Assembly: GCF_004768465.1 (NCBI RefSeq)
Contig: NZ_SRMF01000001.1
Coordinates: 418,948-482,947 of the forward strand
DNA from: Natronospirillum operosum
GTDB taxonomy: Bacteria; Pseudomonadota; Gammaproteobacteria; Pseudomonadales; Natronospirillaceae
Direction of reading: 5' to 3'
DNA: 64,000 bases
The notes beneath the pieces are model-generated. The model saw only the letters and a program-made list of their open reading frames with translations. It was not told the DNA's origin and did not search any database. This document shows positions 6,397-39,989 of this stretch, one piece after another. Positions within the stretch are counted from its first letter, which is position 1, and the number at the start of each line of letters is the position of its first letter. The position numbers and the translations under genes are program-made.

Positions 6397-6415
6397 ACAA
6401 CCCCCATTTTTTTTC

Positions 6416-24012: not shown

Positions 24013-24089
24013 ATTCAATCGGCACGTGCCCCACATTGCGGCCACCCGGCATTCGACCTACAATTGGCTCCCAAATCGAACCTGATCCA

Positions 24090-24138
24090 ACTGTCGACTG
24101 TCTACCGTCGACAGTCTACTACCCACTGTGGACCTCCG
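24090..24138 (+). repeat. Family C heptad array in the epimerase leader
   Basis: Seven consecutive 7-base units (ACTGTCG, ACTGTCT, ACCGTCG, ACAGTCT and so on) end three bases before the ATG at 24142. No Shine-Dalgarno is visible. Confidence 0.8.
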
Positions 24139-24141
24139 AAT

Positions 24142-25164
24142 ATGAAACACCTCGTTACCGGCACCGCTGGCTTCATCGGCTTTCACACTGCCAAAACCCT
24201 GCTGGAACGCGGTGACGCCGTGGTCGGCTTTGACAACGTCAATGACTACTACGACACCAGCATCAAGGAAGCCCGGCTCAAGCTGCTGGAAGAAACCGCC
24301 CGTGCCACTGGCACCGAGTACCACTTCATTCGGGCCAACCTGGCAGACCTGAGCGCAGTGGAAGCCTGCTTCAGAGACCACAACATCGAGCGTGTCATTC
24401 ACCTGGCCGCCCAGGCCGGCGTGCGCTACTCGCTGGAAAACCCGCACAGCTATGTGGAAAGCAACCTGGTGGCCTTCACCAACCTGCTCGAAGCCTGCCG
24501 CCACGCCGAAACACCGCACCTGACCTACGCCAGCACCAGCAGCGTCTACGGCGCCAACACCACCATGCCGTTCAGCGAGCACGCCGGCGTGGACCACCCG
24601 CTGCAGTTCTACGCCGCCACCAAGAAAGCCAACGAAATGATGGCGCACAGCTACAGTCATCTGTACCGGCTGCCAACCACCGGCCTGCGCTTTTTCACTG
24701 TATATGGCCCCTGGGGCCGGCCCGACATGGCTCTGTTCAAGTTCACAAAGAACATTCTGGAAGGCAAGCCGATTCCGGTGTTCAACCACGGCAACCACAC
24801 TCGGGATTTCACCTACGTCGCCGACATCGTTGCCGGCGTGATCAAGGCCAGCGACCAGGTCGCCCAGCCCAACCCCGAGTGGGACAGCAACCACCCCGAC
24901 CCGGCCACCAGCAACGCGCCGTATCGCATCTTCAATATCGGCAACAACAACCCGGTCAAGCTCAGCGCCTACATCGAAGCCATCGAAGACGCCCTCGGCA
25001 TGAAAGCCGACAGGGACCTGCTGCCCCTGCAACCCGGTGACGTACCCGACACCTTCGCCGACAGCACCGCCCTGGAACAGGCCGTCAACTACAAGCCCGA
25101 CACCCCGGTGAAAGAGGGCGTAGCCAACTTTGTGGCCTGGTATCGCGACTATTATCAGGTCTGA
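24142..25164 (+). CDS. UDP-glucuronate 4-epimerase (extended short-chain dehydrogenase)
   Basis: A 340-residue NAD-dependent epimerase that interconverts UDP-glucuronic and UDP-galacturonic acid. The Rossmann motif is [18 protein letters not shown] (about 7-24), followed by the family-specific [18 protein letters not shown] (about 31-48). The active-site YAATK (Tyr about 158) follows the [14 protein letters not shown] segment, and [19 protein letters not shown] is diagnostic of uronate 4-epimerases of the LpsL/CapI type. With Ugd (25572) it supplies two acidic sugars. The ATG comes directly after a heptad array and no ribosome binding site is obvious. A 407-base gap with repeats and the ops site separates it from ugd. 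Confidence 0.88.
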
Positions 25165-25261
25165 CAGAGCAACTGATTTGTAGCGAGCGCCGCATCCTAC
25201 AAAACAACAACATAACCTCGAAAAAACGGGTTGAAGGCCCGCAAACCATCTACTAATATCC

Positions 25262-25280
25262 ATGTTCAACAACTGAACAT
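25262..25280. promoter_or_regulatory. Inverted repeat upstream of ops, possible operator
   Basis: ATGTTCA and TGAACAT are separated by five bases. It lies 25 bases before the ops element in the ugd leader. The binding protein is unknown. Confidence 0.35.
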
Positions 25281-25305
25281 ATTGGCAAGCCACTTCACCC
25301 GGCCG

Positions 25306-25317
25306 GGCGGTAGCGTG
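25306..25317 (+). promoter_or_regulatory. ops element (RfaH recruitment site)
   Basis: GGCGGTAGCGTG is identical to the ops core known from enterobacterial RfaH-controlled operons, preceded by G as in JUMPstart. It lies 266 bases upstream of ugd in a gene-free leader, on the same strand as the polysaccharide genes. An rfaH gene is present at 17845. Confidence 0.8.
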
Positions 25318-25334
25318 TCCGGAGCACAAATCCC

Positions 25335-25419
25335 TGTAGGCTGTGGCCCTTGGCCACGCACGAACCCCTGTAGGCTGTGGCCCTTGGCCACGCATGCGTG
25401 AGCAAGCTCACCGCCTACA
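25335..25419. repeat. Family B repeats between ops and ugd
   Basis: One half-unit (25335-25360) and one full unit (25369-25419) with TGTAGGCTGTG at the left and a CGCCTACA right arm. Confidence 0.85.
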
Positions 25420-25447
25420 AGTACCGCACGTGTGAACAAGGCCCACA

Positions 25448-25552
25448 ACTGTCTACTGTGCACCGTCGACCACCAACTTTCGACTTATAACTTTCGACTC
25501 ACAACGATCGACTACCCGCTGTGTACTGTCGACCGTCTACTGTCGACTAATA
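25448..25552 (+). repeat. Family C heptad array in the ugd leader, fifteen units in register
   Basis: Fifteen 7-base units without a single slip, mixing ACTGTCG, ACCGTCG, ACTTTCG, ACTCACA and ACTACCC types. Unlike most of the other leaders, a Shine-Dalgarno (AAGGA) follows before the ATG at 25572. Confidence 0.9.
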
Positions 25553-25571
25553 CTCATCTCAAGGACCCAAC

Positions 25572-26738
25572 ATGAAAATCGCCGTCGCCGGCACCGGCTA
25601 CGTAGGTCTTTCCAACGCCATGCTGTTGGCCCAACACAATGAAGTGGTGGCGCTCGATATCATCGAAGACAAGGTCAACCAGCTCAACAACCGGCACAGC
25701 CCCATTGTTGATGCGGAGATCGAAGACTTCCTGACCAACCGTGAGCTCAACTTCCGGGCCACCACCAACCGGGAAGAGGCCTATCAGGGTGCCGACTTCG
25801 TCATCATCGCCACTCCCACGGACTACGACCCGGACACCAACTACTTCAACACCAGCACCGTTGAATCCGTAATCCGCGATGTCACCGCCATCAACCCGGA
25901 TGCGGTCATGATCATCAAGTCCACGGTGCCGGTCGGCTACACCAGCGACATCAGAGCAGAGCTGGGCAACGACAATATCCTGTTCTCCCCGGAGTTCCTG
26001 CGCGAAGGCAAGGCCCTGTACGACAACCTGTACCCCTCGCGCATCATAGTGGGTGAACGCTCACCCCGTGCCGAAGCCTTTGCCGGCCTGCTGCAGCAGG
26101 GCGCCATCAAGAAGGATACCGCAGTACTGTTTACCGACAGCACCGAAGCCGAAGCGATCAAGCTGTTCTCCAACACCTACCTGGCCATGCGCGTCGCCTA
26201 CTTCAACGAGCTGGACACCTACGCCGAAACCCACGGCCTCAGCACCCAGCAGATCATCGAAGGCGTCAGCCTCGACCCGCGCATCGGCAACCACTACAAC
26301 AACCCGTCCTTCGGCTATGGCGGCTACTGCCTGCCGAAAGACACCAAACAGCTGCTGGCCAACTACGACGAAGTGCCCAACAACCTGATCAAGGCCATTG
26401 TGGAGGCCAACACCACCCGCAAGGACTTCGTCGCCGACGCCATCATCCGCCGCAACCCCAAGGTGGTCGGCGTACACCGGCTGATCATGAAAACTGGCTC
26501 CGACAACTTCCGCGCCTCCGCCATGCAGGGCGTCATGAAACGCATCAAGGCAAAGGGCATCGAAGTCGTCGTCTACGAACCCGTACTGGAAGAAGACACC
26601 TTCTACAACTCACGGGTCATCAAGGACCTGAACGAATTCAAACAGATCAGCGACATCATCCTCGCCAACCGCCTCACCGACGACATCCAGGACGTCCGCG
26701 AGAAGGTGTATACGAGGGATCTGTACGGGAAAGACTAG
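25572..26738 (+). CDS. ugd: UDP-glucose 6-dehydrogenase
   Basis: Oxidises UDP-glucose twice with NAD+ to UDP-glucuronate. The 388-residue protein is the short bacterial form. It has the Rossmann motif [18 protein letters not shown] (about 4-21), [15 protein letters not shown] (about 78-92), [36 protein letters not shown] (about 138-162), and the catalytic cysteine in [15 protein letters not shown] (Cys about 256). It is the first polysaccharide gene after the ops site. The AAGGA nine bases upstream fixes the start. Its 3' end borders an accessory island. Confidence 0.95.
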
Positions 26739-26863
26739 GCTGTTGCAGTCCAGTTTTAAACCGCACAGTCTGTGCAACCCCTTCACACCGTTTAACGTCG
26801 AGGTTAATGTCCTCTCTGCCGTGCGCTTATGCAGGGTGAGTTCATTGAAACGGGAGAAAGGAC

Positions 26864-27286
26864 ATGAAGAAGGGGTTGTTCAAAAAACGCAGACATCGGA
26901 TGCTGAGCTTGGTAGGCGGTGTATCGATTTCACTGCTTTCAATCGCGCTTCTGGGCGACACTCAAGTTATAAACATTGGGGATGACAACATAGGTATCGG
27001 ATCAAACACAGGGACCATTTCCATTGACCAGAGTGTTACCGTTTACCCCGAACCGAACAAGATCTACCGGCTCAGGAATCCGGGCGGAGGGAATCCCATG
27101 GTTCTACCGGAACCGCGACTGACAAGTGAATATCAGCCGTGTCGGGTGTTTCAAGGCACTCCCATTGCTCTAACCGGCAGTTCCGAGATGGATCGTTATC
27201 TGGAGTTTGTTGAGGTGACTGTTCTGGAAGGCAATTGCGCAGGCCAGACGGGTTGGGTAACACTAGGCAGTGTCAGCATCGAGTAG
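26864..27286 (+). CDS. Hypothetical exported protein
   Basis: A 140-residue protein with a basic N-terminus (KKGLFKKRRHR) and a hydrophobic stretch at about 13-32, so a signal anchor or signal peptide. Residues 33-60 are a short Gly/Ile/Asn-rich beta stretch (INIGDDNIGIGSNTGTISID), and the C-terminal half has two cysteines (about 88 and 125) in an SH3-like pattern ending CAGQTGWVTLGSV. GGAGAAAGGA precedes the ATG. I do not recognise a family. It is the first gene of the accessory island and 12 bases from the next gene, so probably in the same operon as the metallopeptidase. Confidence 0.55.
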   Translation: MKKGLFKKRRHRMLSLVGGVSISLLSIALLGDTQVINIGDDNIGIGSNTGTISIDQSVTVYPEPNKIYRLRNPGGGNPMVLPEPRLTSEYQPCRVFQGTPIALTGSSEMDRYLEFVEVTVLEGNCAGQTGWVTLGSVSIE

Positions 27287-27298
27287 AAAAAGAAACCT

Positions 27299-27691
27299 AT
27301 GGATTGGACGTATGAGCGCGGTGACGGCAGGAAAAAGCACCGCTGGAACAAGGATGTTCCTGGCTTCCAGCCGTCAAGGAAAGGACCTGTCGGTAAGTGC
27401 CCCAAGTCAATTGATGAGCAACTGGCGACGGTGATACTGAACAATGGTGTTCCCTATTCCGCGTTCGAAGACGAGCCGGAACAGCCGGACCGGATATACT
27501 GCGTCTACCAAGGTACTGTGTACGAGGCCGTGCCCACCCGACCCGGAATCTCGTGGCACGCATACCCCTGGCGTGGTGATCTTCCTGGAAGGCAGGGGTT
27601 GCCAAAAAAGGTGGAAGATGCGCTCAGAGACAAGGCTGATCAGGAAGGTTACCTCCAAGAGTTCGAGAAATGGATAAGAAAGTACAGCTAG
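27299..27691 (+). CDS. Hypothetical protein upstream of ImmA/IrrE peptidase
   Basis: A 130-residue soluble protein, basic at the N-terminus and acidic in the middle, with an unusual number of tryptophans and prolines (YERGDGRKKHRWNKDVPGF, YPWRGDLPGRQGLPKKV). It has no signal peptide. Its last 22 bases overlap the start of the metallopeptidase gene, which implies coupled translation, and a role as partner or target of the peptidase is possible. I know no family for it. There is no clear ribosome binding site. Confidence 0.55.
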   Translation: MDWTYERGDGRKKHRWNKDVPGFQPSRKGPVGKCPKSIDEQLATVILNNGVPYSAFEDEPEQPDRIYCVYQGTVYEAVPTRPGISWHAYPWRGDLPGRQGLPKKVEDALRDKADQEGYLQEFEKWIRKYS

Positions 27692-29079
27692 GTTCAAATA
27701 CTGGCATTCAGCTTACTCTCAACTACAAGGCTGCGCAGGACGCTGAAGGATTGCTTTGGGCGAAAGGCCGCCTGATCATTGGTGGCGAAGTGGTATGGGC
27801 GCTTGAAGACGAGGAGCCGATTGAGTGGACCTGGCTGGATCTGTTCGAATTTCTGGGTAGAGCTTGGCCTTGGCTACTGTTGGAACAGGACTTTCCATTG
27901 CCCCTTAAGGCAACGAGTCCGGCCAGCCTGCGCCAGGAAGCTGAGAAACGGTGGGCGACCCTGTCATCAGAGATAGTCAGGGACGAAGAGGAACAAATTC
28001 ATCGCTTTCTGCATCGCCATGACTTCGCTTCGGCCATGAAGGGGATCTTTCTGCCTAGCGTCTTCCTGCTTCGGCAGGGCGAACGTTTTTTGATCAACAT
28101 TCCCTCGCGCCACAAGGAACTGATGATGTCCTTTGACAGCGTGGTGGATGACCTGAACTCAATAGGAGAGGGGCTGAAAGGCTTGCTTGCTGAGTCAAAG
28201 CATCCAAGGGCCTTGATGGCGCTCAAGCACTGGGATGACCGGCAGGAAAAATTATCACACCGTGCCATTGAGTTGTTGTCAGGTCTCAGACCTGATGAAT
28301 TATCTCTCATCGAAGCAGATAAGGGCCCAGCGTTCTGGGAGCACGACGCAGAACACCCGACACGAGATAGCGTCATTCTTGCCGCAGCGAGAATGTCCAA
28401 GGACACAATGCCTTTCAATCTGCAAAAAGAGCTGCTTGAACTGCTGAAAGAAATACCTGGTTGCACCACTGAAGAGCTCGATTCCATTGCAACTGAAATA
28501 CTGTCCGAATTCAAAGAAGAGGGGCGCCCTCATGATCAAGGGTACTTGGCCGCTCGCAAGTTGCGCGACTGCTTGAACCTTGACCTGGAAGACCGGGTAG
28601 AACCGGAGCAGTTGCTTAGGCAATGGCAGGTTCAAATAAAGAAGAAGGCCTTCCCAGACAGTAGTTTTGAAGCTGTCGCCTTGTGGGGAGAGAACCATGG
28701 ACCTGCTGTTGTATTGAACTATAGAGCAAGCAAAGCGGCCGCTAATGAGCATCGTGTACGCTCAACCTTGGCTCATGAAATCTGCCATCTTGTTCTGGAT
28801 CGGCATTCAGCGTTGCCTGTTGCAGAGGTCTTGAATGGACGTACACCAGAAAAACTGGAGCAACGGGCACGAGCCTTTGCGGCCGAGTTTCTGCTGCCCA
28901 GAGCTTCGGCCAGTAAAACTCTAAGGCAAAACAGCAACCTGAAGGATGCACTATACAGCTTGAGTCGGGCGTACGGTGTAAGCTTGGAGCTGGCTGCATG
29001 GCAAATCCATAACTCGGATGCTTACAGCTCCTTGAACCGTGATGACCTCCTTGTTTTACAACAGGCAATCACAATTTAA
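27670..29079 (+). CDS. ImmA/IrrE family metallopeptidase with long N-terminal region
   Basis: A 469-residue protein. The C-terminal part (about 320-420) is an ImmA/IrrE (DUF955, COG2856) zinc peptidase: HEICH at about 369-373, and a downstream AAEFLLP (about 406-412), whose Glu is the usual third ligand. In this family the enzyme cleaves repressors or acts in toxin-antitoxin and stress switches. The first 300 residues match nothing I know; they are helical, with DSVVDDLNSIGEGLKGLLAE. No helix-turn-helix is apparent, although many relatives have one. Overlap with the preceding gene suggests a two-gene unit. Confidence 0.75.
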   Translation: MDKKVQLGSNTGIQLTLNYKAAQDAEGLLWAKGRLIIGGEVVWALEDEEPIEWTWLDLFEFLGRAWPWLLLEQDFPLPLKATSPASLRQEAEKRWATLSSEIVRDEEEQIHRFLHRHDFASAMKGIFLPSVFLLRQGERFLINIPSRHKELMMSFDSVVDDLNSIGEGLKGLLAESKHPRALMALKHWDDRQEKLSHRAIELLSGLRPDELSLIEADKGPAFWEHDAEHPTRDSVILAAARMSKDTMPFNLQKELLELLKEIPGCTTEELDSIATEILSEFKEEGRPHDQGYLAARKLRDCLNLDLEDRVEPEQLLRQWQVQIKKKAFPDSSFEAVALWGENHGPAVVLNYRASKAAANEHRVRSTLAHEICHLVLDRHSALPVAEVLNGRTPEKLEQRARAFAAEFLLPRASASKTLRQNSNLKDALYSLSRAYGVSLELAAWQIHNSDAYSSLNRDDLLVLQQAITI

Positions 29080-29083
29080 ACCC

Positions 29084-29650
29084 ATGCGCCTCACCCAAAC
29101 CCAGATCAACACCATCAAAAGCGAAACCGCCGCCGCTTGGGCAAGACTCATCCAGGCGCTGGAAGTCAGCCAGCGGGAAATTGAGCACCTGAGCTATAGC
29201 TGGCGGCAACTGTTCGTTGACCGCACGCCAGACCTCAACTGGGTCAAGGCGCTGACCGAGCAGCCCGATGAAGCCGTCGTGCTGGAAGCGTTCGTATCCC
29301 GTTTTGCCCGCCTGCAGGATCAACTGGGGGCTCGAGTGATACCCCGTTGGCTGACTGTTCTGGCAGAAGAGCCCGGCAGCCATCTGGAGAACCTGAATCG
29401 AGCTGAAAAGCTGGGTGTTCTGAAAAGTGCCGAAGATTGGCTCACCATCCGCCAGGTCCGCAACCAACTGGTTCATGAATACATGCAGAGGCCCGAAGAC
29501 CTGGTTCAGGCCCTGCAGAACGCACGCACTGCAACCGGCCTGTTTATTGACACCTACAACCGCATCAGGGCATACACCATCAAGGCATTCCCGGAGAAAC
29601 AGACCGAACTGCCAACCTCTATTGTAGTGAGGGACGCAAGTCCCGATTGA
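29084..29650 (+). CDS. HEPN-domain protein with repeat-derived C-terminus
   Basis: A 188-residue helical protein. RNQLVH at about 126-131 followed by EYM fits the Rx4-6H motif of HEPN ribonucleases and of HepT-like toxins. The last residues, VVRDASPD, and the stop come from a family A repeat (29625-29650), so the original C-terminus has probably been replaced. Four bases separate it from the metallopeptidase. I chose the second ATG (MRLTQTQ) because the first lies inside the upstream gene. A nucleotidyltransferase partner remnant is not present immediately next to it, but MntA-HepT is 260 bases on. Confidence 0.65.
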   Translation: MRLTQTQINTIKSETAAAWARLIQALEVSQREIEHLSYSWRQLFVDRTPDLNWVKALTEQPDEAVVLEAFVSRFARLQDQLGARVIPRWLTVLAEEPGSHLENLNRAEKLGVLKSAEDWLTIRQVRNQLVHEYMQRPEDLVQALQNARTATGLFIDTYNRIRAYTIKAFPEKQTELPTSIVVRDASPD

Positions 29651-29663
29651 ATTGTAGCGAGGA
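29624..29663 (+). repeat. Family A repeats at the end of the HEPN gene
   Basis: One complete copy codes for the C-terminus of the HEPN protein, and a second, degenerate copy (AACCCAAGGCCCGA) follows. Confidence 0.75.
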
Positions 29664-29707
29664 ACCCAAGGCCCGATTGGCCTTGTTCCCATTACCGTCC
29701 TCCGTGT

Positions 29708-29791
29708 ACTGTCGACTGTCATCCGTGCACTGTCGACTAACACGCACTTTCGACCAACAACACAACTTTCAACTTTCGACTAACAACTCAA
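29708..29791 (+). repeat. Family C heptad array in front of the HI0074-like remnant
   Basis: ACTGTCG, ACTGTCA, TCCGTGC, ACTGTCG, then after short slips ACTTTCG, ACTTTCA, ACTTTCG, ACTAACA, ending at the ATG of a broken gene. The spacer 29651-29791 contains nothing else. Confidence 0.8.
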
Positions 29792-29881
29792 ATGACCAAC
29801 CACGATATCCGCTGGCAGCAACGCTACCAGCAATTCAACAACGCCTTTTCACTGCTGGAGCGCCATCACCCAGAGCTATAA
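29792..29881 (+). pseudogene. Remnant of a nucleotidyltransferase substrate-binding protein (HI0074-like)
   Basis: Only 29 codons, ATG to TAA: DIRWQQRYQQFNNAFSLLER resembles the N-terminus of HI0074-type partners (DIRWxQRFxNFxKALxxL). The rest of such proteins, about 100 residues, is missing. It still carries the heptad leader typical of this region, so it was once expressed like the polysaccharide genes. MntA follows 32 bases later. Confidence 0.55.
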
Positions 29882-29913
29882 TCAGTCAGGGCGCAAATGT
29901 TTTATCAAGGTGA

Positions 29914-30210
29914 ATGACCATGTTGATGGATGACATCAACCAGAAAAAAGACATCGTTAACAAACTGGCGCAGCAATGTGGCGCCAGCCATGTCAGGATT
30001 TTTGGTTCCGTGGCCCGAAGAGAAGAGACTGCAGACAGCGACATAGATATCCTGGTAGAGCTGCCGAAAGGTTATGACCTGTTCCGTCAAAGAATGAGAT
30101 TGGCCAGGTCCTATGAAGAACTGTTTGGCCGAAAAGTGGACTTGATCCCAGAGCACGAATTGAACCAACACATCAGGGCGGATGTGATTCGCGAGGCGGT
30201 TCCATTGTGA
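29914..30210 (+). CDS. mntA: MntA-type minimal nucleotidyltransferase antitoxin
   Basis: A 98-residue enzyme of the MNT family. The motif GSVARREETADSDID (about 30-44) is the GSx10DxD signature for the two metal-binding Asp; a third acidic residue lies in KVDLIPE (about 80-86). In characterised pairs MntA transfers AMP to a tyrosine of HepT and silences it. The next ATG (six bases on) fits better with AAGG upstream and is an alternative start. Its stop overlaps the GTG of the HepT gene. Confidence 0.88.
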   Translation: MTMLMDDINQKKDIVNKLAQQCGASHVRIFGSVARREETADSDIDILVELPKGYDLFRQRMRLARSYEELFGRKVDLIPEHELNQHIRADVIREAVPL

Positions 30211-30536
30211 GCAAGGACTGGAAGCCATATGCCCGGCACATTCTTGATTGCATCACCAAGATAAGGCGCATAGAGGACAGGGGTGATATCGCAACCGACG
30301 ACATCCTTTATGATGCCGCAGTGAGAAACCTGCAAACTTTATCGGAAGCGACCCAGAGGTTGCCCGATGCCAGAAAAGTCGAGTATCCACAAATCCCTTG
30401 GAGTGAAATCAGCGGCTTCAGAAACATACTGGTCCACAATTATCTGGGTGATATTGACCCGGAAACAGTCAAGCGCGTGATCAAGGAAAACCTGGAAGAA
30501 CTGGCCACTGCCGTAAAAGCAATGTTGGATGATTGA
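30207..30536 (+). CDS. hepT: HepT-type HEPN ribonuclease toxin
   Basis: A 109-residue HEPN (DUF86) protein. RNILVHNYLG (about 73-82) fits Rx4HxY, including the tyrosine that MntA modifies in known systems. It starts with GTG inside the MntA stop, the usual coupling. Together they form a complete type VII toxin-antitoxin module lying between ugd and the polysaccharide regulator gene. A partial family B repeat follows the stop. Confidence 0.88.
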   Translation: MSKDWKPYARHILDCITKIRRIEDRGDIATDDILYDAAVRNLQTLSEATQRLPDARKVEYPQIPWSEISGFRNILVHNYLGDIDPETVKRVIKENLEELATAVKAMLDD

Positions 30537-30546
30537 GGCAGCTACA

Positions 30547-30575
30547 CTCTCACACTGTGGCCCTTGGCCGCGCAT
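30547..30575. repeat. Diverged family B half-unit
   Basis: CACTGTGGCCCTTGGCCGCG with the TGTAGG arm lost, 10 bases after hepT. Confidence 0.6.
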
Positions 30576-30606
30576 GAACTCGACCAACGACGCAAGTCGT
30601 ACTTTC

Positions 30607-30699
30607 ACTGTCGACCGTCCTCTGTGCACCGTCGACCAACAGCAAAACTGTCGACTGTCCTCTGTGCACTGTCGACTCACAACTTTCAACTCTCAGACC
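30607..30699 (+). repeat. Family C heptad array in the leader of the MarR-type regulator
   Basis: Two runs: ACTGTCG, ACCGTCC, TCTGTGC, ACCGTCG, then after a slip ACTGTCG, ACTGTCC, TCTGTGC, ACTGTCG, ACTCACA, ACTTTCA, ACTCTCA. The array ends four bases before the GTG start. Confidence 0.85.
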
Positions 30700-31017
30700 G
30701 TGCTAACCGACGAAACCCGCTACCGAATCCTGAAATCCCTCGAAGCTGACCCCTCCGCCAGCCAGCGTGCTATTGCCCGCGAACTCGGCATCAGCCTCGG
30801 CAAGGTCAACTACTGCCTGCAGGCGCTGATAGACAAGGGCCTGGTGAAAGCCACCAACTTCAGGAACAGCCCCAACAAGGCCCGGTACCTGTACACGCTC
30901 ACACCCCAGGGCATTGAAGAGAAAAGCCGCGTCACCGCCCGCTTTCTCAAACGCAAGCTGGCAGAGTACGACGAAATACAGCGCGAAATCGAAGAGCTCA
31001 GAAAAGACCTCTCATAA
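30700..31017 (+). CDS. MarR-type EPS-associated transcriptional regulator
   Basis: A 105-residue winged-helix protein of the family found beside exopolysaccharide genes (TIGR04176-like). The helix-turn-helix is SASQRAIARELGISLGKVNYCLQALIDKGLV (about 18-48), the wing holds KARYLYTLTPQGIEEK (about 60-75), and the C-terminus is a coiled coil (KRKLAEYDEIQREIEELRK). The GTG start is the only one that keeps the N-terminal LTDETRYRILKSLEADP intact; it lies four bases after a heptad array. It is the natural candidate to regulate the adjacent operons, but its target sites are not known. Confidence 0.85.
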   Translation: MLTDETRYRILKSLEADPSASQRAIARELGISLGKVNYCLQALIDKGLVKATNFRNSPNKARYLYTLTPQGIEEKSRVTARFLKRKLAEYDEIQREIEELRKDLS

Positions 31018-31021
31018 GAAA

Positions 31022-31117
31022 ACCGTCGACTGTCTACCGTGCACTGTCGACTAAGTTACACACTTTCAACTTTCAACTTTCGACTCACAACTCACAATTT
31101 CCAACTCACGACTAAAT
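31022..31117 (+). repeat. Family C heptad array in the wzz leader
   Basis: ACCGTCG, ACTGTCT, ACCGTGC, ACTGTCG, a five-base slip, then eight units from 31062 (ACTTTCA twice, ACTTTCG, ACTCACA twice, ATTTCCA, ACTCACG, ACTAAAT). Four bases later comes the ATG, with no Shine-Dalgarno. Confidence 0.9.
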
Positions 31118-31121
31118 AACT

Positions 31122-32663: not shown

Positions 32664-32699
32664 AACAGACCTGTGCCACTGGATGCCGAGAATTTTCCG

Positions 32700-33503
32700 A
32701 TGACAGAACTCCCCGTTAGCGCCCTACTGAACATTGCCCACCAGGCTGGCGATGCCATTATGGCGGTGTACGCCCGCGACTTTGATACCGAAACCAAGGC
32801 TGACAACAGCCCCCTGACAGAAGCCGACCTGGCCGCCCACAGAGTGATTGTGGAGCAACTGCAGGCCCTGACGCCCGACATTCCCATACTCTCTGAAGAA
32901 AGCAGTGACATTCCCTGGGCAGAACGTCAGCAGTGGCAACGCTACTGGCTGGTAGACCCGCTGGACGGCACCAAGGAATTCATCAAGAAGAACGGCGAAT
33001 TCACTGTCAACATTGCCCTGATCGAACAGGGAGAACCCGTCTGGGGCGTTGTTCATGCCCCGGCCCTTGAGGTCACCTATCACGGCGGCACCGCAGTCGG
33101 TCAGGCTTTTGTAGGCCGTGGCCCTTGGCCACGCACGGCGTCGTCAGACGCCCCAAATAAATCGGAAAAACCGATTTGGGTAGCCGCACCCCCGGCCGGC
33201 AAATCAGGCTGGCGCATCGTCGGCAGCCGCTCGCACCAGAGCGACGAGTTCAAAGCCTTTGTTGAGCAATACGAAGCGCCGGAAATCAAAAGCATGGGCA
33301 GCTCCCTGAAAATCTGCCTGGTCGCCGACGGCTCAGCGGATCTGTACCCGCGCCTCGGCCTGACCAGCGAATGGGACACCGCAGCCGCCCACGCGGTACT
33401 ATTGGGCGCCGGCGGCCGGCTGGTCGAAGCCGATTCCGGCCAGCCGCTGCGCTACAACCAGAAAGAATCGGTACTGAACCTCTGGTTTATCGCCTCGGCG
33501 TAG
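32700..33503 (+). CDS. cysQ: 3'(2'),5'-bisphosphate nucleotidase CysQ with an embedded repeat
   Basis: Hydrolyses PAP, the by-product of sulfotransferases, to AMP. The 267-residue protein has the metal-binding motifs SEESSDI (about 66-72), DPLDGTKEF (about 86-94) and WDTAAAHAVL (about 224-233). A family B repeat lies inside the gene at 33108-33136 and is translated in frame as VGRGPWPRTA, about residues 138-147, in a surface loop before the second domain. The frame is intact before and after, so the protein may be functional. The ATG giving MTELPVSALL matches the family N-terminus. Confidence 0.9.
   Translation: MTELPVSALLNIAHQAGDAIMAVYARDFDTETKADNSPLTEADLAAHRVIVEQLQALTPDIPILSEESSDIPWAERQQWQRYWLVDPLDGTKEFIKKNGEFTVNIALIEQGEPVWGVVHAPALEVTYHGGTAVGQAFVGRGPWPRTASSDAPNKSEKPIWVAAPPAGKSGWRIVGSRSHQSDEFKAFVEQYEAPEIKSMGSSLKICLVADGSADLYPRLGLTSEWDTAAAHAVLLGAGGRLVEADSGQPLRYNQKESVLNLWFIASA
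33108..33136. repeat. Family B repeat inside cysQ
   Basis: TGTAGGCCGTGGCCCTTGGC then CACGCA, in frame in the coding sequence. Length and reading frame were kept compatible with translation. Confidence 0.85.
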
Positions 33504-33512
33504 GTTCTCGCC

Positions 33513-33598
33513 CTGTAGGCTGTGGCCCTTGGCCACGCAGAAACCCTGTAGGCTGTGGCCCTTGGCCACGCATGCGTGAGCAAGGCTCACCGCCTACA
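33513..33598. repeat. Family B repeats after cysQ
   Basis: One half-unit and one full unit (GCGTGAGCAAGGCTCACCGC then CTACA). Confidence 0.85.
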
Positions 33599-33635
33599 AC
33601 GAAGCCACCTCAGTACGCACCGGCACCATATACTT

Positions 33636-33716
33636 ACTGTCGACCGTCTTCTGTGCACTGTCGACTATCAACGCACTTTCGACTCACAACTTGTCTCTCA
33701 CAACTCACAGCTTTTT
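33636..33716 (+). repeat. Family C heptad array in the cysN leader
   Basis: ACTGTCG, ACCGTCT, TCTGTGC, ACTGTCG, ACTATCA, a four-base slip, then ACTTTCG, ACTCACA, ACTTGTC, TCTCACA, ACTCACA and GCTTTTT, two bases before the ATG. No Shine-Dalgarno. Confidence 0.9.
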
Positions 33717-33718
33717 AT

Positions 33719-35122
33719 ATGAACCAATCCGACCTGATCGACAGCGACATCGAAGCCTACCTGCACCAGCATGAGCACAAGGGGCTGCTGCGTTTCATTA
33801 CCTGCGGCAGTGTGGACGACGGCAAATCCACGCTGATCGGCCGCCTGCTGCATGACTCCAAAATGATCTTTGAAGATCAACTGGCCTCCATCACCAAAGA
33901 CTCCAAGACCATGGGCAAGGCCGGCGAAGGCGAGCTGGACCTGGCCCTGCTGGTCGACGGCCTGGCCAGTGAGAGAGAGCAGGGCATCACCATCGATGTG
34001 GCCTACCGGTTCTTTTCCACCGACAAGCGCAAGTTCATTATTGCGGACACCCCCGGGCACGAGCAGTACACACGCAACATGGCCACAGGGGCATCAACCG
34101 CCCAGGCCGCCGTCATCCTGATTGATGCCCGCCACGGCGTGCAGACCCAGACCCGCCGCCACACCTTCATCTGCTCCCTGCTGGGCATTCAGCACATAGT
34201 GGTCGCCATCAACAAGATGGACCTGGTGGAGTTCCGGCAGAAACGGTTTGAAGAGATTCTCGACGACTACACGGAGTTCGCCCGCCAACTGGGCGTTCAG
34301 GTTGGCGCCTTCATCCCCATGTCGGCGCTCAAGGGCGACAATGTGGTCACCCGCAGCCCGAAAATGGGCTGGTATGAAGGCCCTACCCTGACCGAATGGC
34401 TGGAACGGGTAGATGTGGATGCCGACTTCCCCAACGCATTCACGCGCCTGCCCATACAGTCAGTCGTGCGGCCCGACCTCAATTTTCGCGGCTTTACCGG
34501 CACCCTGGAAGCCGGCTCCGTAAGCCGGGGCGACGAAATAACAGTACTCCCCAGCGGCAAGAAGACCCGCATCGCCAGCCTCTATCTGGCCGGAGAAGAA
34601 GCCGAGCAGGCAGATACCAACCAGGCGGTGCTGATCACCACCGAAGACGAGGTGGATATTTCCCGCGGCAACATGGTGGTCCGTGGGGACCACCCGGTAC
34701 TGGCCCGCCGCTCGGAAGTCGACTTTATCTGGATGAGCGAAGAGACACTGCAGCCGGGCCGGGAATACCTGATCAAGTGTGGCCCTCTGGTTACTCCGGG
34801 GCGCGTAGAGCACCTGGACTACAAAACCGACGTCAACACCCTGGAACAGCAGCCGACCGAGCAACTGGGCCTGAACGAAATCGGCCATGGCGTACTCAAT
34901 ACCAACGAGCCGCTCATTTTTGACCCCTACACCACGCTGCGTGAGACCGGCTCACTGATCGTGGTCGACCGCCTGACCAACATCACAGTGGGTGCAGGCC
35001 TGCTGCGCGGCAAGGCGCAGGGCGAGCTCAAACACGCCGGCCGCGAATACACAGATGCCGAGCGCGCCCTCAACGCCTACATCCGCGAGCACTTCCCGGA
35101 ATGGAACTGCAAACCAGTTTAG
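33719..35122 (+). CDS. cysN: Sulfate adenylyltransferase subunit 1 (GTPase)
   Basis: The regulatory GTPase of ATP sulfurylase, which with CysD makes APS from ATP and sulfate. The 467-residue protein shows the G1 loop GSVDDGKSTL (about 30-39), DTPGHEQY (about 109-116) and NKMD (about 164-167), followed by two elongation-factor-like beta-barrels. It ends near residue 467, so there is no fused APS kinase domain as in NodQ/CysNC. The order cysN-cysD is the reverse of the usual cysD-cysN. The ATG follows directly on the heptad array; the longer frame reads through repeats and is not real. Confidence 0.95.
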   Translation: MNQSDLIDSDIEAYLHQHEHKGLLRFITCGSVDDGKSTLIGRLLHDSKMIFEDQLASITKDSKTMGKAGEGELDLALLVDGLASEREQGITIDVAYRFFSTDKRKFIIADTPGHEQYTRNMATGASTAQAAVILIDARHGVQTQTRRHTFICSLLGIQHIVVAINKMDLVEFRQKRFEEILDDYTEFARQLGVQVGAFIPMSALKGDNVVTRSPKMGWYEGPTLTEWLERVDVDADFPNAFTRLPIQSVVRPDLNFRGFTGTLEAGSVSRGDEITVLPSGKKTRIASLYLAGEEAEQADTNQAVLITTEDEVDISRGNMVVRGDHPVLARRSEVDFIWMSEETLQPGREYLIKCGPLVTPGRVEHLDYKTDVNTLEQQPTEQLGLNEIGHGVLNTNEPLIFDPYTTLRETGSLIVVDRLTNITVGAGLLRGKAQGELKHAGREYTDAERALNAYIREHFPEWNCKPV

Positions 35123-35153
35123 AACTTGAGTCGACAGCGGACAGTCGACAGAA

Positions 35154-35187
35154 GACAGTAAAGGCTGCCCAGCCCGCTTTTGCTGTC
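35154..35187 (+). promoter_or_regulatory. Intercistronic hairpin cysN-cysD
   Basis: GACAGTAAAGGC pairs with GCTTTTGCTGTC over 12 bases with two G-T wobbles, loop 10 bases. A similar hairpin lies between cysD and cysC. There is no T-run; it could be an RNA-processing or stability element. Confidence 0.6.
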
Positions 35188-35237
35188 GACCGTCGACTGT
35201 CCTCAGTCAACTAACAAACTCAGAATTTAAAACTACA
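35182..35237 (+). repeat. Family C heptad array in the cysD leader
   Basis: GCTGTCG, ACCGTCG, ACTGTCC, TCAGTCA, ACTAACA, one-base slip, ACTCAGA, ATTTAAA, ACTACA, then ATG. The left arm is also part of the intercistronic hairpin. Confidence 0.8.
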
Positions 35238-36137
35238 ATGTCTTTAACTCATCTGAAACAACTCGAAACCGAATCCATCCACATCATTCGTGAAGTGGCG
35301 GCGGAATTTGACAACCCGGTCATGCTCTACAGCATCGGCAAGGACTCGGCCGTCATGCTGCATCTCGCGCGCAAGGCGTTCTTGCCCGGCAAACCGCCAT
35401 TCCCGCTGATGCATGTGGACACTACCTGGAAATTCCGCGAGATGATCGAGTTCCGCAACCGCATGGCAAAAGAAGTGGGCATGGAACTCATCGTTCATAT
35501 CAACGAAGAAGGGGTGCGCCAGGGCATTGGCCCCTTCACGCATGGCAGCGCCGTGCATACCGACGTGATGAAAACCCAGTCGCTCAAGCAGGCCCTGAAC
35601 AAATACCAGTTCGACGCCGCCTTTGGTGGCGCCAGGCGAGACGAAGAGAAAAGCCGCGCCAAGGAACGCATCTACTCCTTCCGCGATGAAAACCACCGCT
35701 GGGACCCGAAAAACCAGCGCCCGGAACTCTGGAAGCTCTACAACGGTCGCATCAACAAGGGCGAGAGCATTCGTGTGTTCCCGCTCAGCAACTGGACCGA
35801 ACTCGACATCTGGCAGTACATCCATCTGGAACAGATTCCCATCGTGCCCCTGTATTACGCCAAGGAGCGCCCCGTGGTGCAGCGCGACGGCACCTGGATC
35901 ATGGTGGACGATGACCGCATGCCGATGGAAGCCGGAGAACAGCCACAGATGAAGAGCGTCCGTTTCCGCACCCTGGGCTGCTACCCGCTCACCGGTGCCG
36001 TTGAAAGCACAGCCACCACATTGCCGGAAATCATCCAGGAAATGCTGCTCACCAAAACCAGCGAGCGCCAGGGCCGGGTCATCGACCACGACCAGGCCGC
36101 CAGCATGGAAAAGAAAAAACAGGAAGGCTACTTCTGA
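35238..36137 (+). CDS. cysD: Sulfate adenylyltransferase subunit 2
   Basis: The catalytic subunit that adenylates sulfate. The 299-residue protein is full length. It has the PP-loop [18 protein letters not shown] (about 31-48), the conserved [26 protein letters not shown] (about 120-145) and the C-terminal [21 protein letters not shown]. It lies 115 bases from cysN, and the spacer has the hairpin and heptads. Confidence 0.96.
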
Positions 36138-36171
36138 ATGTTGGCTAGTAGACCGAGGACTGTCGACAGAA

Positions 36172-36213
36172 GACAGTGAAGGCGTCCTTGCCTCCTGGCC
36201 CGCTTTTACTGTC
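36172..36213 (+). promoter_or_regulatory. Intercistronic hairpin cysD-cysC
   Basis: GACAGTGAAGGCG pairs with CGCTTTTACTGTC over 13 bases with two wobbles. It matches the cysN-cysD hairpin in design, and the right arm is the first heptad of the cysC leader. Confidence 0.6.
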
Positions 36214-36301
36214 GACCGTCTACTAATTACTCACAACTTCCTACTTTCAACTTTCAACTTTCGACTCACAACTCACAACTTTTTACTTTCGACTCAAAAC
36301 T
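36208..36301 (+). repeat. Family C heptad array in the cysC leader, thirteen units in register
   Basis: Starting ACTGTCG, ACCGTCT, ACTAATT, ACTCACA, ACTTCCT and ACTTTCA, every seventh position restarts with ACT or ACC up to 36298, then ACT and the ATG at 36302. There is no Shine-Dalgarno. Confidence 0.93.
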
Positions 36302-36880
36302 ATGACTTCTCCTGAAATCACCTGGCACAACACCGAGGTCACCCCGGCCGACCGAGCCAAAGCCCTGGGGCAAACCCCCAAATGCATCTGGCTCACCGGC
36401 CTCTCCGGCTCAGGCAAGAGCACCATTGCCAACGCACTGGATGTCTATCTCAACGAGCAGGGCAGGCACACCTTCCTGCTCGATGGCGACAACGTACGCC
36501 ACGGCCTGAACAAGGACCTGGGCATGACAGAAAACGACCGCGCCGAGAACATCCGCCGCGTCGGCGAAGTGGCCAAGCTCATGGTCGATGCTGGGCTTAT
36601 AGTAGTCTGTGCCTTCATCTCGCCCTACAAGCGAGACCGGCAGATGGTGCGATCCACGTTCAACCACGGTGAGTTTGTAGAGGTGTATCTGGAAACACCC
36701 CTGGCCGTGTGTGAAGAGCGTGACCCCAAAGGCCTCTACAAGAAGGCCCGTGCCGGCATCATCAAGAACTTCACCGGCATCAGCGACCCCTACGAAGTGC
36801 CGGAAGCACCAGAGGTCACCATAGACACATCCAAATCCGACATCGAAGCCAGCATCAAGAAAATCTGCAGCGCCATCTGA
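36302..36880 (+). CDS. cysC: Adenylylsulfate kinase
   Basis: Phosphorylates APS to PAPS, the sulfate donor of sulfotransferases. The 192-residue protein has the P-loop [14 protein letters not shown] (about 33-46), the [14 protein letters not shown] segment (about 61-74) with APS contacts, [13 protein letters not shown] (about 104-116), and [22 protein letters not shown] (about 128-149). It overlaps the next gene (a sulfotransferase) as TGATG, tying PAPS supply to its consumer. Confidence 0.96.
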
Positions 36881-37737
36881 TGATCAACGACAACAGGCCA
36901 ACAATCAATCAACTGGACCCACTGCCATTTGTGGACCCGGTGAACCGCTACCTCCTGTTCATCAACTCCAAATGCGGTGGTACCACCATCAAGTACTGGT
37001 TCTTCAGGAATGTCGGTGTCATGGGCAACGAGTTCAATCTGCCCTGGCTGACCCGGTACTTCGGAATAAAGTTCGCCCTGCAGTTCATGACCAAGATGGC
37101 ACTGGAAGACAGAGCAACCCGTTACGACAACAACCTGGGCATCCGCAGCCTGACCAAGATCTATCGCAATCAGTTCTCGGCGCCCTTCATGGCGCGCCAC
37201 CAGCACCAGGGGTTCAGGCAGGTGCTGGTGTGTCGCAACCCCTATGACCGGGTGGTCAGCGGTTTTATCGACAAGTTCTGTGGTGACGACAAGAACAAGC
37301 CCTGGGTGCGTGAAATCATCGAGCACTATGGCTCCGGTGGTGCCATCTCATTCAACCAGTTCCTGGATCACCTGCTAGACGCACCAGAAGAAGCTCACAA
37401 TCGGCACTGGCGGCGACAGACCTATATCATTGATGGCCAGAACATTGATGCCATGATCCGGCTCGAACATCTGCTGGAAGACTTTGAAGCCAACAGACAC
37501 CTGTTCGGTGATGCAGACTTCGGTCCGCTTACCAGCAAGTCACAAAGCAATCAATACGCAGCCAGCTTCCCGGCGGACATCAATGTAGTCAACCGGACCA
37601 ACCTGGAACTGGTCGGCTTGAAGAATGAACACCAGGCGTTTCCGCCCAAAAAGCAGTTTCTGAACGATGAAACCATCGGCAAGATCAACCGCATCTATGC
37701 CGAGGACTTTGAGCGTTTGCCGTACTCTCCGACGTGA
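36880..37737 (+). CDS. Sulfotransferase family 2-like protein (second of three)
   Basis: A 285-residue cytoplasmic protein. The N-terminal nucleotide segment is LLFINSKCGGTTIKYWFFRN (about 25-44), a variant of the 5'-phosphosulfate loop, and QVLVCRNPYDRVVSGFIDKF (about 112-131) is the 3'-phosphate segment. It differs strongly from the protein at 31938, so it should sulfate another sugar position. It is translationally coupled to cysC. Confidence 0.8.
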   Translation: MINDNRPTINQLDPLPFVDPVNRYLLFINSKCGGTTIKYWFFRNVGVMGNEFNLPWLTRYFGIKFALQFMTKMALEDRATRYDNNLGIRSLTKIYRNQFSAPFMARHQHQGFRQVLVCRNPYDRVVSGFIDKFCGDDKNKPWVREIIEHYGSGGAISFNQFLDHLLDAPEEAHNRHWRRQTYIIDGQNIDAMIRLEHLLEDFEANRHLFGDADFGPLTSKSQSNQYAASFPADINVVNRTNLELVGLKNEHQAFPPKKQFLNDETIGKINRIYAEDFERLPYSPT

Positions 37738-37825
37738 CTCCGGTCAGTTGTAAATCTCTGAAATTACAAGAGCAAGGTGCCATACTGTGCATATGACAGC
37801 CTCAATTATGGAAAGAGAGGGAATC

Positions 37826-38848
37826 ATGATTCCTGATGTCAAGGCAGACCAGCAATGCATCCAGTACTGGATCAATGATCTTGAACAGGATGAGGTGATT
37901 GGTGCTGTCCTGAAATCCAGGCCTTTTCAGCGCTTGCATCAGGTGTCGTTTCTAGGCGCACTGGACTACGTGGCAACAACCAATAAAGAAAAAAAAGGCC
38001 CTCGTTCGCGTGCAGTACACTCCCTGCATGTAGCAGCGCTTGCCAATTTCGTAGCCACGCATCGTGGCTACGACAATGATCTGAAACGCCATCTTGTCAT
38101 TGCCGGCCTTCTTCACGACGTCGGCCATATCCCGTTGTCCCATAGTGTTGAACCCTATGTTCAGGAGAAGTTCGGGTTTGGCCACCATGAACTCAGCGAA
38201 GCGATCATGCGCGGTGAGGTCGATTTCAGCAAAGTACTGGGGGAGACGCTTAAACAGTCGGCCGATCCGGGTTTTCTGCTAGAACTGGTCAATGGCAGGG
38301 CCACTCCCGGTGTTGGGGGAGATCTCTTCAGCAGCCCCATCAATATAGATACCATTGACGGCATCATCAGAACCTATGGCTACCTGAGCCGGCGCAGTCA
38401 TGACCTCGACCCGTTCTCGGTAGCAACAGCCTCATTTCTGAATGATGATGAAAGCAGGTACAGCGTGCTGGACCAATTCTGGCACACCAAACACTTTGTG
38501 TATGAAAACCTGATCAACAACAGGCTGGGCCTGTTGGCCGACAACTACAGCAGGCTGTATTTCTCTGAAGAAAAAGTGCCTATGGACGAGAGTGCCCTGC
38601 TTGAGCAGGAATCACAGTGGAGAAGAAAGTACGCAACACTGTTCACCGGGCTTAATAAAATCGATGTCGACTCCAGGCCGCCAGACAGTATTGTTGATAA
38701 AGTAATATTTTATAAAAAAAGAGTTTATACGGTTGTGGACTCCGACAAATCGATATTGGGTCGGTATCGCAGCGCCCGGACAAAAGCAACGGTCAGATTC
38801 AGTGATTCGCAGGCAGAAAGCACTAAGGAGCAAGCCTCACTGTTTTAG
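37826..38848 (+). CDS. HD-domain phosphohydrolase
   Basis: A 340-residue protein with an HD hydrolase domain in the dGTPase/SamHD1-like order: SRAVHSLHVAALANF (about 65-79, first His), then AGLLHDVGHIPLSHSVEP (about 92-109, the HD pair) and a later Asp in NIDTIDGIIRTYGYL (about 172-186). It has no extra nucleotide-binding domain. I chose the ATG before IPDVKADQQ because GAGAGGGA precedes it; upstream GTG and ATG codons in frame are alternatives. The next gene, 28 bases downstream, is a nucleotidyltransferase; the pair looks like one accessory unit. Confidence 0.78.
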   Translation: MIPDVKADQQCIQYWINDLEQDEVIGAVLKSRPFQRLHQVSFLGALDYVATTNKEKKGPRSRAVHSLHVAALANFVATHRGYDNDLKRHLVIAGLLHDVGHIPLSHSVEPYVQEKFGFGHHELSEAIMRGEVDFSKVLGETLKQSADPGFLLELVNGRATPGVGGDLFSSPINIDTIDGIIRTYGYLSRRSHDLDPFSVATASFLNDDESRYSVLDQFWHTKHFVYENLINNRLGLLADNYSRLYFSEEKVPMDESALLEQESQWRRKYATLFTGLNKIDVDSRPPDSIVDKVIFYKKRVYTVVDSDKSILGRYRSARTKATVRFSDSQAESTKEQASLF

Positions 38849-38876
38849 TTTGTGGTAACTGTGAAAAGGACTGCCT

Positions 38877-39872
38877 ATGAGTACAAAGGACAGCACATTC
38901 CAAGACTTCCCGGAACTTGCAAAACGCTCGGATTTCACTCAAAAGAAACTGAAGACACTGCGTGACAGATTCAAGTCAATAATTGAAAGCAGTGATTACA
39001 GTGAACAGATTACTATTGTCACAACAGGCTCCTATGGTCGGGGGGAAGCTTCAGAAGAATCGGATCTGGATCTGTTCATTCTTCTGGATGCAGACGAACC
39101 GGTTAAAGAAGCCATACCGGACGTGCTGGATGCTATCAAACAGCTGATTGACGAAGAAGTTCCCAAAAGTACCGGTGAAACCACTACTTTCGGGCCACGT
39201 ACTGTCATCAAGTTCAGCGAGATGCTCCAGAACATTGGTGGTAGCGAGGACGATAATGAGTCCTTGACCAGAAGAATGCTTTACCTGCTTGAAGGTACCT
39301 GGCTCTATGGGCAGAAAAGGTTCGAAAGATACCGTCACAGATTGCTGGAAAAATACATCAAGGAAGATTCGCCAGATCACCAGCTTTCAAAGTTTTTCCT
39401 TAACGAAATAATCCGGTACTACCGAACCATAGCAACTGACTTCGAGCACAAAGTCTCCGAAAGAAACAAGGAATGGGGCCTGCGCAGTACCAAGCTGCGA
39501 TTTTCCAGAAAGCTGCTGTATTTTGGTGGTCTCATCACGGTTGCTGAAGTATCTGAATTGACGCAGGCAGAAAAAGTGGAAAGATCCATATCTCTTTTGG
39601 AGAAGCCCGTTTTGGAGAGGGTCGCGGCCCTCAGTGACAGTGAGAGCCAATCCACGCGGGAGATCTTTCGTATCTATGAGCAGTTTCTCACGGCTATCTC
39701 TGACCCCGAAATAAGGCAAACGCTGGAACAGACCGATAAAGAAAGCAGACACGACTGTAAGCAATATATGCAACTGCGGGAGTTGAGCTCAGAATTTTCC
39801 AACAGGTTGGCAACGTGGATCGAAGAACAGTTCAACAAGGAACATCCGATACACCATTCGCTGATTTTCTGA
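38877..39872 (+). CDS. Nucleotidyltransferase-fold protein paired with HD hydrolase
   Basis: A 331-residue protein. TTGSYGRGEASEESDLDLFILLD (from about 48) holds the GSx10DxD motif of the polymerase-beta superfamily; FGPRTVIKFSEML (about 102-114) is probably the strand with the third acidic position, but no Asp is obvious there. The C-terminal 180 residues are helical (about 150-331) with no known match. AAAAGGA precedes the ATG. The pairing with an HD hydrolase is compatible with a synthetase/hydrolase or toxin/antitoxin arrangement, or with a defence unit; none can be shown here. Codon use appears a little more AT-rich than in the sulfation genes. Confidence 0.7.
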   Translation: MSTKDSTFQDFPELAKRSDFTQKKLKTLRDRFKSIIESSDYSEQITIVTTGSYGRGEASEESDLDLFILLDADEPVKEAIPDVLDAIKQLIDEEVPKSTGETTTFGPRTVIKFSEMLQNIGGSEDDNESLTRRMLYLLEGTWLYGQKRFERYRHRLLEKYIKEDSPDHQLSKFFLNEIIRYYRTIATDFEHKVSERNKEWGLRSTKLRFSRKLLYFGGLITVAEVSELTQAEKVERSISLLEKPVLERVAALSDSESQSTREIFRIYEQFLTAISDPEIRQTLEQTDKESRHDCKQYMQLRELSSEFSNRLATWIEEQFNKEHPIHHSLIF

Positions 39873-39917
39873 AGATAGATGGGTAGATCACAACATCAAG
39901 GCCGGTGTAAAAACCAA

Positions 39918-39988
39918 ACCGTCGACCGTCATCTGTGCACTGTCGACCAACAAACTCACAACTTTCGACTCAACACTCAAAACTAACC
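39918..39988 (+). repeat. Family C heptad array in the SLC13 permease leader
   Basis: ACCGTCG, ACCGTCA, TCTGTGC, ACTGTCG, ACCAACA, one-base slip, ACTCACA, ACTTTCG, ACTCAAC, ACTCAAA, ACTAACC, ending one base before the ATG. No Shine-Dalgarno. Confidence 0.9.
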
Positions 39989-39989
39989 A

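Follow-up and report, generated by a model that had tools for sequence, protein, structure and literature searches.

In a window of 64,000 nucleotides (nt), i.e. the whole stretch analysed, from the 4.34-Mb genome of the γ-proteobacterium Natronospirillum operosum (C1:418948-482947, with C1 being contig NZ_SRMF01000001.1), tandem arrays of 7-base units of the type ACYNNCN stand directly before a series of polysaccharide and sulfation genes. With moderate confidence we interpret these arrays as a fast-turnover minisatellite element that resembles a miniature inverted-repeat transposable element (MITE), is gained or kept at coding boundaries and, in the sulfation cluster, replaces the Shine-Dalgarno (SD) sequence as a leader. 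Each array would be part of a dispersed intergenic element that evolves quickly and occurs either as a lone array or as a pair of arms, which flank a core of 9-89 bases and point away from it. The arms may change through gain and loss of units, i.e. slippage, and through copying between loci, and the elements would be gained or kept where the 3' end of the strand read as ACT... (the ACT strand) meets a start or stop codon. In the polysaccharide-sulfation cluster, arms rich in ACTTTCR/ACTCACA reach the start codon and occupy the place of the SD; most likely, translation there begins on a leader of the S1/standby type that lacks an SD, is poor in G and folds weakly. The leader role was probably acquired after the arrival of the element and would not mark a regulon.

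The arrays were scored by a cyclic 7-state scan with a profile trained on the window's own arrays; as the profile scores the same arrays it was trained on, independent support comes from pattern counts. In the window, 11 arrays scored 26 bits or more, ten of them at 24-40 kb, and none did so in 20 dinucleotide-preserving shuffles of the window (top score 21.5). In the whole genome, a three-unit pattern gave 43 overlapping matches versus 6 for the reversed control, and a composite block (GTCGAC..GTGCAC..GTCGAC) gave 22 matches, some overlapping, with up to three mismatches versus 0 for the reversed control, i.e. copies are dispersed. In a unit-agnostic TRF run, the period-7 arrays were solely of the ACYNNC kind, three in the window and three in 379 kb of own-genome sequence, sampled arbitrarily in 19 stretches. 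The scan placed 10 arrays in 16 kb, one in the remaining window and six in this 379-kb sample. Rfam yielded no match above the gathering score in 23700-40200, and 24000-40100 contains four sigma-70-like sites (7.1 expected).

Every array that the earlier note had listed before nine genes was recovered, and most of them end 0-4 bases before the start codon, as had been claimed. On the plus strand, arrays end 2 nt before the epimerase gene (24088..24139, 47 bits; start at 24142), 3 nt before a 30-codon remnant open reading frame (ORF; 29694..29788, ORF at 29792-29881), 4 nt before the MarR_EPS gene (30601..30695, with two composite blocks; GTG at 30700), 4 nt before cysN (33636..33714; 33719) and 3 nt before cysD (35183..35234; 35238), and the array at 39917..39989 directly abuts the permease start (39990, distance 0 nt). 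Exceptions are the wzz array (31021..31113), which takes up almost all of the space from the MarR stop (31017) to wzz (31122) and ends 8 nt before the start, the cysC array (36208..36303, 13-14 units), which reaches the cysC start (36302, distance -2 nt) and shares 36 identical bases with the wzz array, and the ugd array (25442..25548, about 15 units), whose gap to ugd (25572) is 23 nt and not 20, with AAGGA in between. The related ACTTCCA array noted before the flagellin promoter is indeed present, nearly pure, at 6334..6398 (plus strand), 113 nt before the gene (6512). The strict 7-base register holds for ugd (15.3 units) and cysC (13.7 units), and the epimerase and flagellin arrays are slip-free, too; the remaining six forward window arrays carry one or two slips each.

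ACTGTCG, ACTGTCT, ACCGTCT, ACTTTCG, TCTGTCG and ACTCACA are the commonest units of the genome. Upstream array parts consist mostly of ACTGTCG/ACCGTCN/TCTGTGC units, start-proximal parts being richer in ACTTTCR/ACTCACA, and nearly pure, clearly slipped arrays exist as well (about 10 ACTTTCG, 12 ACTGTCT and 9 ACCGTCT units). For comparison we used a second Natronospirillum genome (Natronospirillum sp. PBR18_bin05A, G001), a Sphingobacteriales bin (G058) and bins of Chitinophagaceae, Cytophagaceae and Prevotella (G061-63). Unit position 2 is C in 96-100% of interior units, and freedom is greatest at positions 4 and 7 in both the own genome and G061-63, at 4, 5 and 7 in G001 and at 3-5 in G058. 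Interior units need less favouring by the scan, which is nevertheless still biased to its own profile, so that this constraint is support and not proof.

Contrary to the earlier note, not all arrays read in the direction of the gene. Two reversed arrays on the minus strand were overlooked, which follow the stops of cysN and cysD and form inverted repeats with the downstream forward arrays. The left arm 6 nt behind the cysN stop (35129..35159, 33 bits) is separated from the cysD array by a core in the cysN-cysD gap (35160..35182, AAAGGC...GCTTTT), and the predicted hairpin reaches -46.7 kcal/mol (z -6.9). In the cysD-cysC gap, the reversed array 9 nt after the stop (36147..36177), the core (36178..36207) and the cysC array give -28.5 kcal/mol (z -2.8); with 21 bits this reversed array is weak alone, i.e. 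no better than the best shuffle, and was left out of the polarity counts. Besides these two pairs, 16 outward-pointing pairs with cores of 9-89 nt were found in the own-genome stretches fetched from outside the window, three of which were folded (z -2.8, -1.2 and -6.5). The strong hairpins of some paired arms behind stops could terminate or protect transcripts.

Where an array comes very close to a start codon, the SD is absent. Among the nine listed genes, an SD of at least four bases is found solely at ugd (AAGGA), confirming what had been noted before. In the own genome, none of the eight genes with an array ending at most 8 nt from the start has such an SD, and it is left in four of the five genes with an array ending 9-23 nt away; thus, the array either spares the SD of the gene or takes its place. 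Altogether 4/13 array genes have an SD of at least four bases versus 284/401 other genes (P 0.004), the latter rate being inflated as the gene caller rewards SDs. The upstream regions of the 13 array genes contain 9% G versus 27% in the 401 others, and their median fold of -40..+20 is -3.8 kcal/mol versus -10.7 kcal/mol. By eye, no SD was seen at the five G001 arrays that end at most 8 nt from a start (cysC, cysN, wzz, marR and the nucleotidyltransferase (NT) gene). Hence the arrays at eight starts stand in the SD position and probably serve as G-poor, weakly structured ribosome-entry leaders. An S1/standby leader had been among the functions suggested earlier, and the place of the array at the ribosome-binding position, the low G content and the weak folding agree with it.

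The arrays follow a more general rule: coding boundaries, whether starts or stops, are often abutted by the 3' end of the ACT strand but rarely by its 5' end, with one of six sets disagreeing. Gene boundaries were taken from a small hexamer-model caller, which misses some short genes and thus makes some distances too long; four window genes were added by hand for the polarity counts and two for the SD counts, and a wrong call at 30664 was removed in both. Distances run from the array end to the next coding boundary, and an end is regarded as docked if it lies within 12 nt of this boundary or reaches into it. Sites outside the window were chosen by sequence pattern and not by place, the score floor was 26 bits (32 bits for Bacteroidota, whose arrays were taken from only part of the listed sites), and arrays inside called genes or without a called gene on one side were dropped. 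The 3' end is docked in 9/11 arrays of the window, 12/30 of the own genome outside it, 8/14 of G001, 23/29 of G058 and 12/20 of G061-63, uniform placement predicting 2.5, 2.4, 0.8, 4.9 and 5.3, respectively, and the 5' end is docked in 1, 1, 0, 2 and 3 cases. Beyond the cluster, arrays dock at stops more often than at starts: in the own genome outside the window 10 of 14 stop-facing arrays end at the stop, and in G058 18/20 stop-facing versus 5/9 start-facing arrays are docked. In three other γ-proteobacteria (G256, G200 and G187), found by pattern and with rough gene models, all eight distinct stop-facing arrays end -21 to +11 nt from the stop.

Several other causes of this polarity were considered. 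Truncation, in which the array itself would create the stop beside it, can be dismissed for cysN, ugd of G001 and a locus of the own genome termed L085, the cases covered, as the same stop is found with and without the element; overlapping cases in G058 may be truncations. By reasoning, tandem stop codons do not cause stop docking either, as the reverse strand of ACTGTCG-type arms is free of stops. Selection for G-poor leaders is not the whole cause, since arrays with balanced G and C (window, own genome outside it and G001) still lean the same way, with 6/15 3' ends and 1/15 5' ends docked, although these numbers are small.

The comparison with G001 shows that positions are kept while sequences turn over. 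An array stands at the same start codon of wzz, cysN, cysC, marR and ugd in both genomes, with the genes being about 72-92% identical, but the arrays differ in unit order and number to a degree that their sequences no longer match (e.g. an ACTCACA run before wzz in G001 and a different array before cysN). Accordingly, orthologous leaders are hardly more similar (35.6, 5 pairs) than non-orthologous leaders between the genomes (33.0, 58 pairs), the values within a genome being 45.8 (own, 36 pairs) and 38.3 (G001, 21 pairs). Other positions changed as a whole: in G001 the genes overlap without gap or array at cysN-cysD (ATGA) and at the permease, whose start overlaps the cysC stop (TGATG), no array was seen at the epimerase ortholog or at the place of the remnant ORF, and the NT gene has an array in G001 and none in the own genome. 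The polysaccharide cluster of G001 is array-rich as well.

One site was found empty. At L085 the own genome carries an element of about 130 bp immediately after a TGA, and G001 has the same TGA followed by the same spacer with continuous flanks, implying that the element was gained or lost as a unit beside a coding boundary. As G001 keeps stop and spacer and misses the element alone, replacement growth, i.e. arms consuming free DNA up to the gene, can be rejected there. For a second L085 element (a gap of about 300 bp), G001 has about 80 bp instead, with no array visible by eye, and stretches of the L085 elements match about a dozen other places in G001 at 73-85%. Features by which MITEs are recognised are thus observed, namely dispersed copies, arms that form inverted repeats and an orthologous site that has the element in one genome and lacks it in the other.

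Arrays of this kind are not confined to Natronospirillum or to polysaccharide genes. A mixed-unit pattern matches 27 stretches of our genome collection (chance level about 4 by our own arithmetic, not derived from a tool), two from Natronospirillum, 18 from Bacteroidota, four from Verrucomicrobia/Lentisphaerae/Kiritimatiellae and three from others; the three-unit pattern occurs in 5 of 369 γ-proteobacteria, including the own genome. As ACTTTCA reads the same backwards, the reversed pattern is a poor control for it, and permuted heptamers were used for viral contigs, which contain 108 ACT stretches versus 23, 32 and 16 for the permuted heptamers (distinct contexts: 98 versus 28, 27 and 16); the matches of the latter indicate that there are heptamer arrays of other kinds. 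The idea that a viral vector carried the composite block was rejected (0 exact matches). Four array-near genes of the own genome outside the window are of the isocitrate/isopropylmalate dehydrogenase, glyoxalase, pyridine-nucleotide-disulphide oxidoreductase and major facilitator superfamily types.

Heptameric intergenic tandem repeats are known from cyanobacteria as short tandemly repeated repetitive (STRR) sequences. The present arrays had been held to be without any described counterpart, which has to be corrected as two similar heptamer classes are published (PMC4679880, PMC4692102), even though we found no paper in the open-access literature that prints the present units as bacterial repeats. 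TAACTGA direct repeats of marine Beggiatoaceae are mostly intergenic and directed toward the start, the largest class ending 1 nt before it (MacGregor 2015, PMC4679880). SDs are rare there, and repeats before a gene that has one end 2-25 bp ahead of this SD, a split between SD-less and SD-sparing repeats that resembles our array genes; the repeats are scattered in Gammaproteobacteria, Cyanobacteria and Bacteroidetes, and S1, Csp and Csr proteins were considered as binders (PMC4679880). In another register TAACTGA reads ACTGATA, having ACT and the final A in common with some of our units, and the start placement is alike in the window, where eight of the nine listed genes have their array within 8 nt and none of these eight an SD; outside the cluster 2/16 start-facing arrays come within 12 nt. 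However, TAACTGA is one fixed heptamer, related heptamers being rarely repeated, and is not among the commonest own units, whereas many units are mixed per array here, arms are often inverted around a core and stop docking outside the cluster is commoner than start docking.

GGGNATC heptamers of Xanthomonas and Nostoc lie near ORFs, using the non-coding strand on the upstream side and the coding strand on the downstream side, vary in length among relatives and belong to no single functional class (Rehm 2015, PMC4692102). Their one-ended ORF polarity is of the same kind as that of the ACT arrays, the arbitrary own-genome sample (0/6) excepted, but they are G-rich and quadruplex-forming, whereas the 22 commonest own units listed have no GGG or CCC run, and the sections considered of that paper show no SD-less leader cluster (PMC4692102). 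BrickBuilt from Porphyromonas gingivalis, a MITE with a minisatellite (23-base unit) and promoter activity 49-591 nt from coding sequences (PMC4596501), is likewise a dispersed intergenic tandem-unit element with inverted-repeat ends, but the arms described here have 7-base units and often lie directly at coding boundaries. The two heptamer papers thus treat one family each and leave the function open; our analysis adds a third, degenerate family and finds, in further lineages, a one-ended docking that resembles the GGGNATC case, the SD-less leader cluster and the empty-site comparison being new parts. With position kept and sequence not, wzz, cysN, cysC, marR and ugd constitute a compact ortholog set that makes function directly testable.

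A number of observations weigh against a MITE-like element that docks at coding boundaries and serves as leader. The six arrays of the arbitrary own-genome sample are all farther than 12 nt from a boundary (27-597 nt), and of the 16 start-facing arrays outside the window only two come within 12 nt of a start. The earlier note had named a lack of start-codon bias as an outcome that would refute its proposal; for starts outside the window this is partly what was found, in spite of the 10/14 arrays at stops. Start-facing arrays of G256, G200, G187 and G426 end 19, 33, 34, 64 and -34 nt from the start, two 5' ends also enter a called gene in the other γ-proteobacteria, viral contigs are mixed with many arrays inside called ORFs (80 of the 108 stretches examined), and the Microcystis repeats sampled by MacGregor showed no such polarity (PMC4679880). 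Moreover, ACTTTCA/ACTTACA-type arrays carry stop codons on the reverse strand, so that a gene read into such an array from behind would end there; in Bacteroidota, some of the docking at stops may arise in this way. With SDs of at least five bases the difference between array genes (3/13) and others (125/401) is lost (P 0.76), and the SD preference of the caller bears on the four-base comparison as well. The empty site shows no clear target-site duplication, no transposase could be tied to the element (no search was aimed at one), and simple slippage does not explain why unit position 2 is near-fixed beside varying others.

A rival reading would be a plain selfish or neutral minisatellite, which grows by slippage, is tolerated only between genes and has no function, its leader position being a leftover of selection. 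Nearly pure slipped arrays, the lack of sequence conservation between orthologous arrays and the mixed functions of array-near genes speak for it, and we consider it a serious possibility, although clearly not the probable one: the unequal freedom of unit positions, the one-ended polarity in five of six sets and the arrays kept at five start codons across genomes with genes of about 72-92% identity fit it poorly, and the L085 element, lying beside a stop with an otherwise kept spacer, is no fill-in of free space. The unequal freedom would rather suit an array for a sequence-specific protein, either a ribbon-helix-helix protein on heptads or an RNA-binding protein, which reads the C at position 2 and its neighbours. 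The omega protein of pSM19035, a ribbon-helix-helix protein, binds contiguous heptads, and contiguous heptads in direct and inverted orientation are what we observe, with position 2 near-fixed and positions 4 and 7 freer (in a scan biased to its own profile). Nevertheless, we deem such a binding array unlikely, since no candidate protein emerged from a search that went no further than MarR_EPS, which does not track the arrays, and since reading at the RNA level would need both strands, stop-side arrays being transcribed as the complement. In its boldest form, the idea would be that ACYNNCN arrays constitute one directional element across phyla, whose 3' end is docked by a dedicated factor reading the most conserved positions and which replaced the SD in some lineages as ribosome-entry leader of a whole cluster; this we offer as a speculation with a rather small chance of being right.

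Two further proposals concern the cluster as such. If inward-pointing repeats flank genes, they might act as recombination joints that let cassettes swap in the polysaccharide cluster, in line with arrays on both sides of cysN and cysD (the latter with a weak arm) and of ugd in G001, and with changed neighbours at three of eight hand-compared array junctions (29792, marR and permease) between the own genome and G001. Five junctions (ugd, wzz, cysN, cysD and cysC) keep their neighbours, array-free junctions, e.g. after ugd and after cysC, are broken as well, and gene neighbourhoods around GGGNATC repeats are more, not less, stable (Rehm et al., PMC4692102), making such joints quite improbable. 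We give still less credit to the leader of a polysaccharide/sulfation regulon, i.e. the common control that the earlier note had envisaged. Ten of the 11 window arrays do lie within 16 kb versus six in the 379-kb sample, and the G001 cluster is array-rich, too; the same kind of array, however, is found at unrelated genes, behind stop codons and in other phyla, so that the arrays are not a polysaccharide regulon mark. Likewise, the MarR regulator, MarR_EPS, loses its standing as candidate binder: it is matched in 19 of 54 genomes, 16 of which have no exact 4-unit ACYNNCR array.

Some neighbouring features touch the arrays or their genes. Repeats of a second family, CTGTAGGCTGTGGCCCTTGGCCACGC, lie at 25320-25400 and 33510-33600, upstream of the ugd and cysN arrays, and similar repeats are also found upstream of G001 arrays. 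A second cysD copy, 82% identical, is located elsewhere in the own genome (G000:C3:93112-94005, locus L139), indicating that the window copy is part of a separate set borne by the cluster. Between cysC and the permease gene, 36880-39872 holds three genes (a sulfotransferase and two others), which are absent in G001, where the two flanking genes overlap. The nucleotidyltransferase and HepT-like pair at 29914-30536 is about 90% identical in G001 and has no array directly before it.

Palindromic repeat clusters of the type TTGTAGCGAGGGACGCAAGTCCCGA are found at 14807-17758, 23782-24029 and 29621-29679, with GTAG before the hairpin, a hallmark of repetitive extragenic palindromic (REP) elements; the own genome has one Y1_Tnp match at C1:498100-498411, about 15 kb beyond the window. 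The protein encoded at 27670-29079 matches the spr1629 repressor/antitoxin model in part and below the cut-off, and the first 300 bases of its gene give no blastn match on contig C95 of G001. Finally, the flagellin (6512-10186, 1224 amino acids) and FliD (10843-14793, 1316 amino acids) of the window are very large, with long stretches outside the matched domains.

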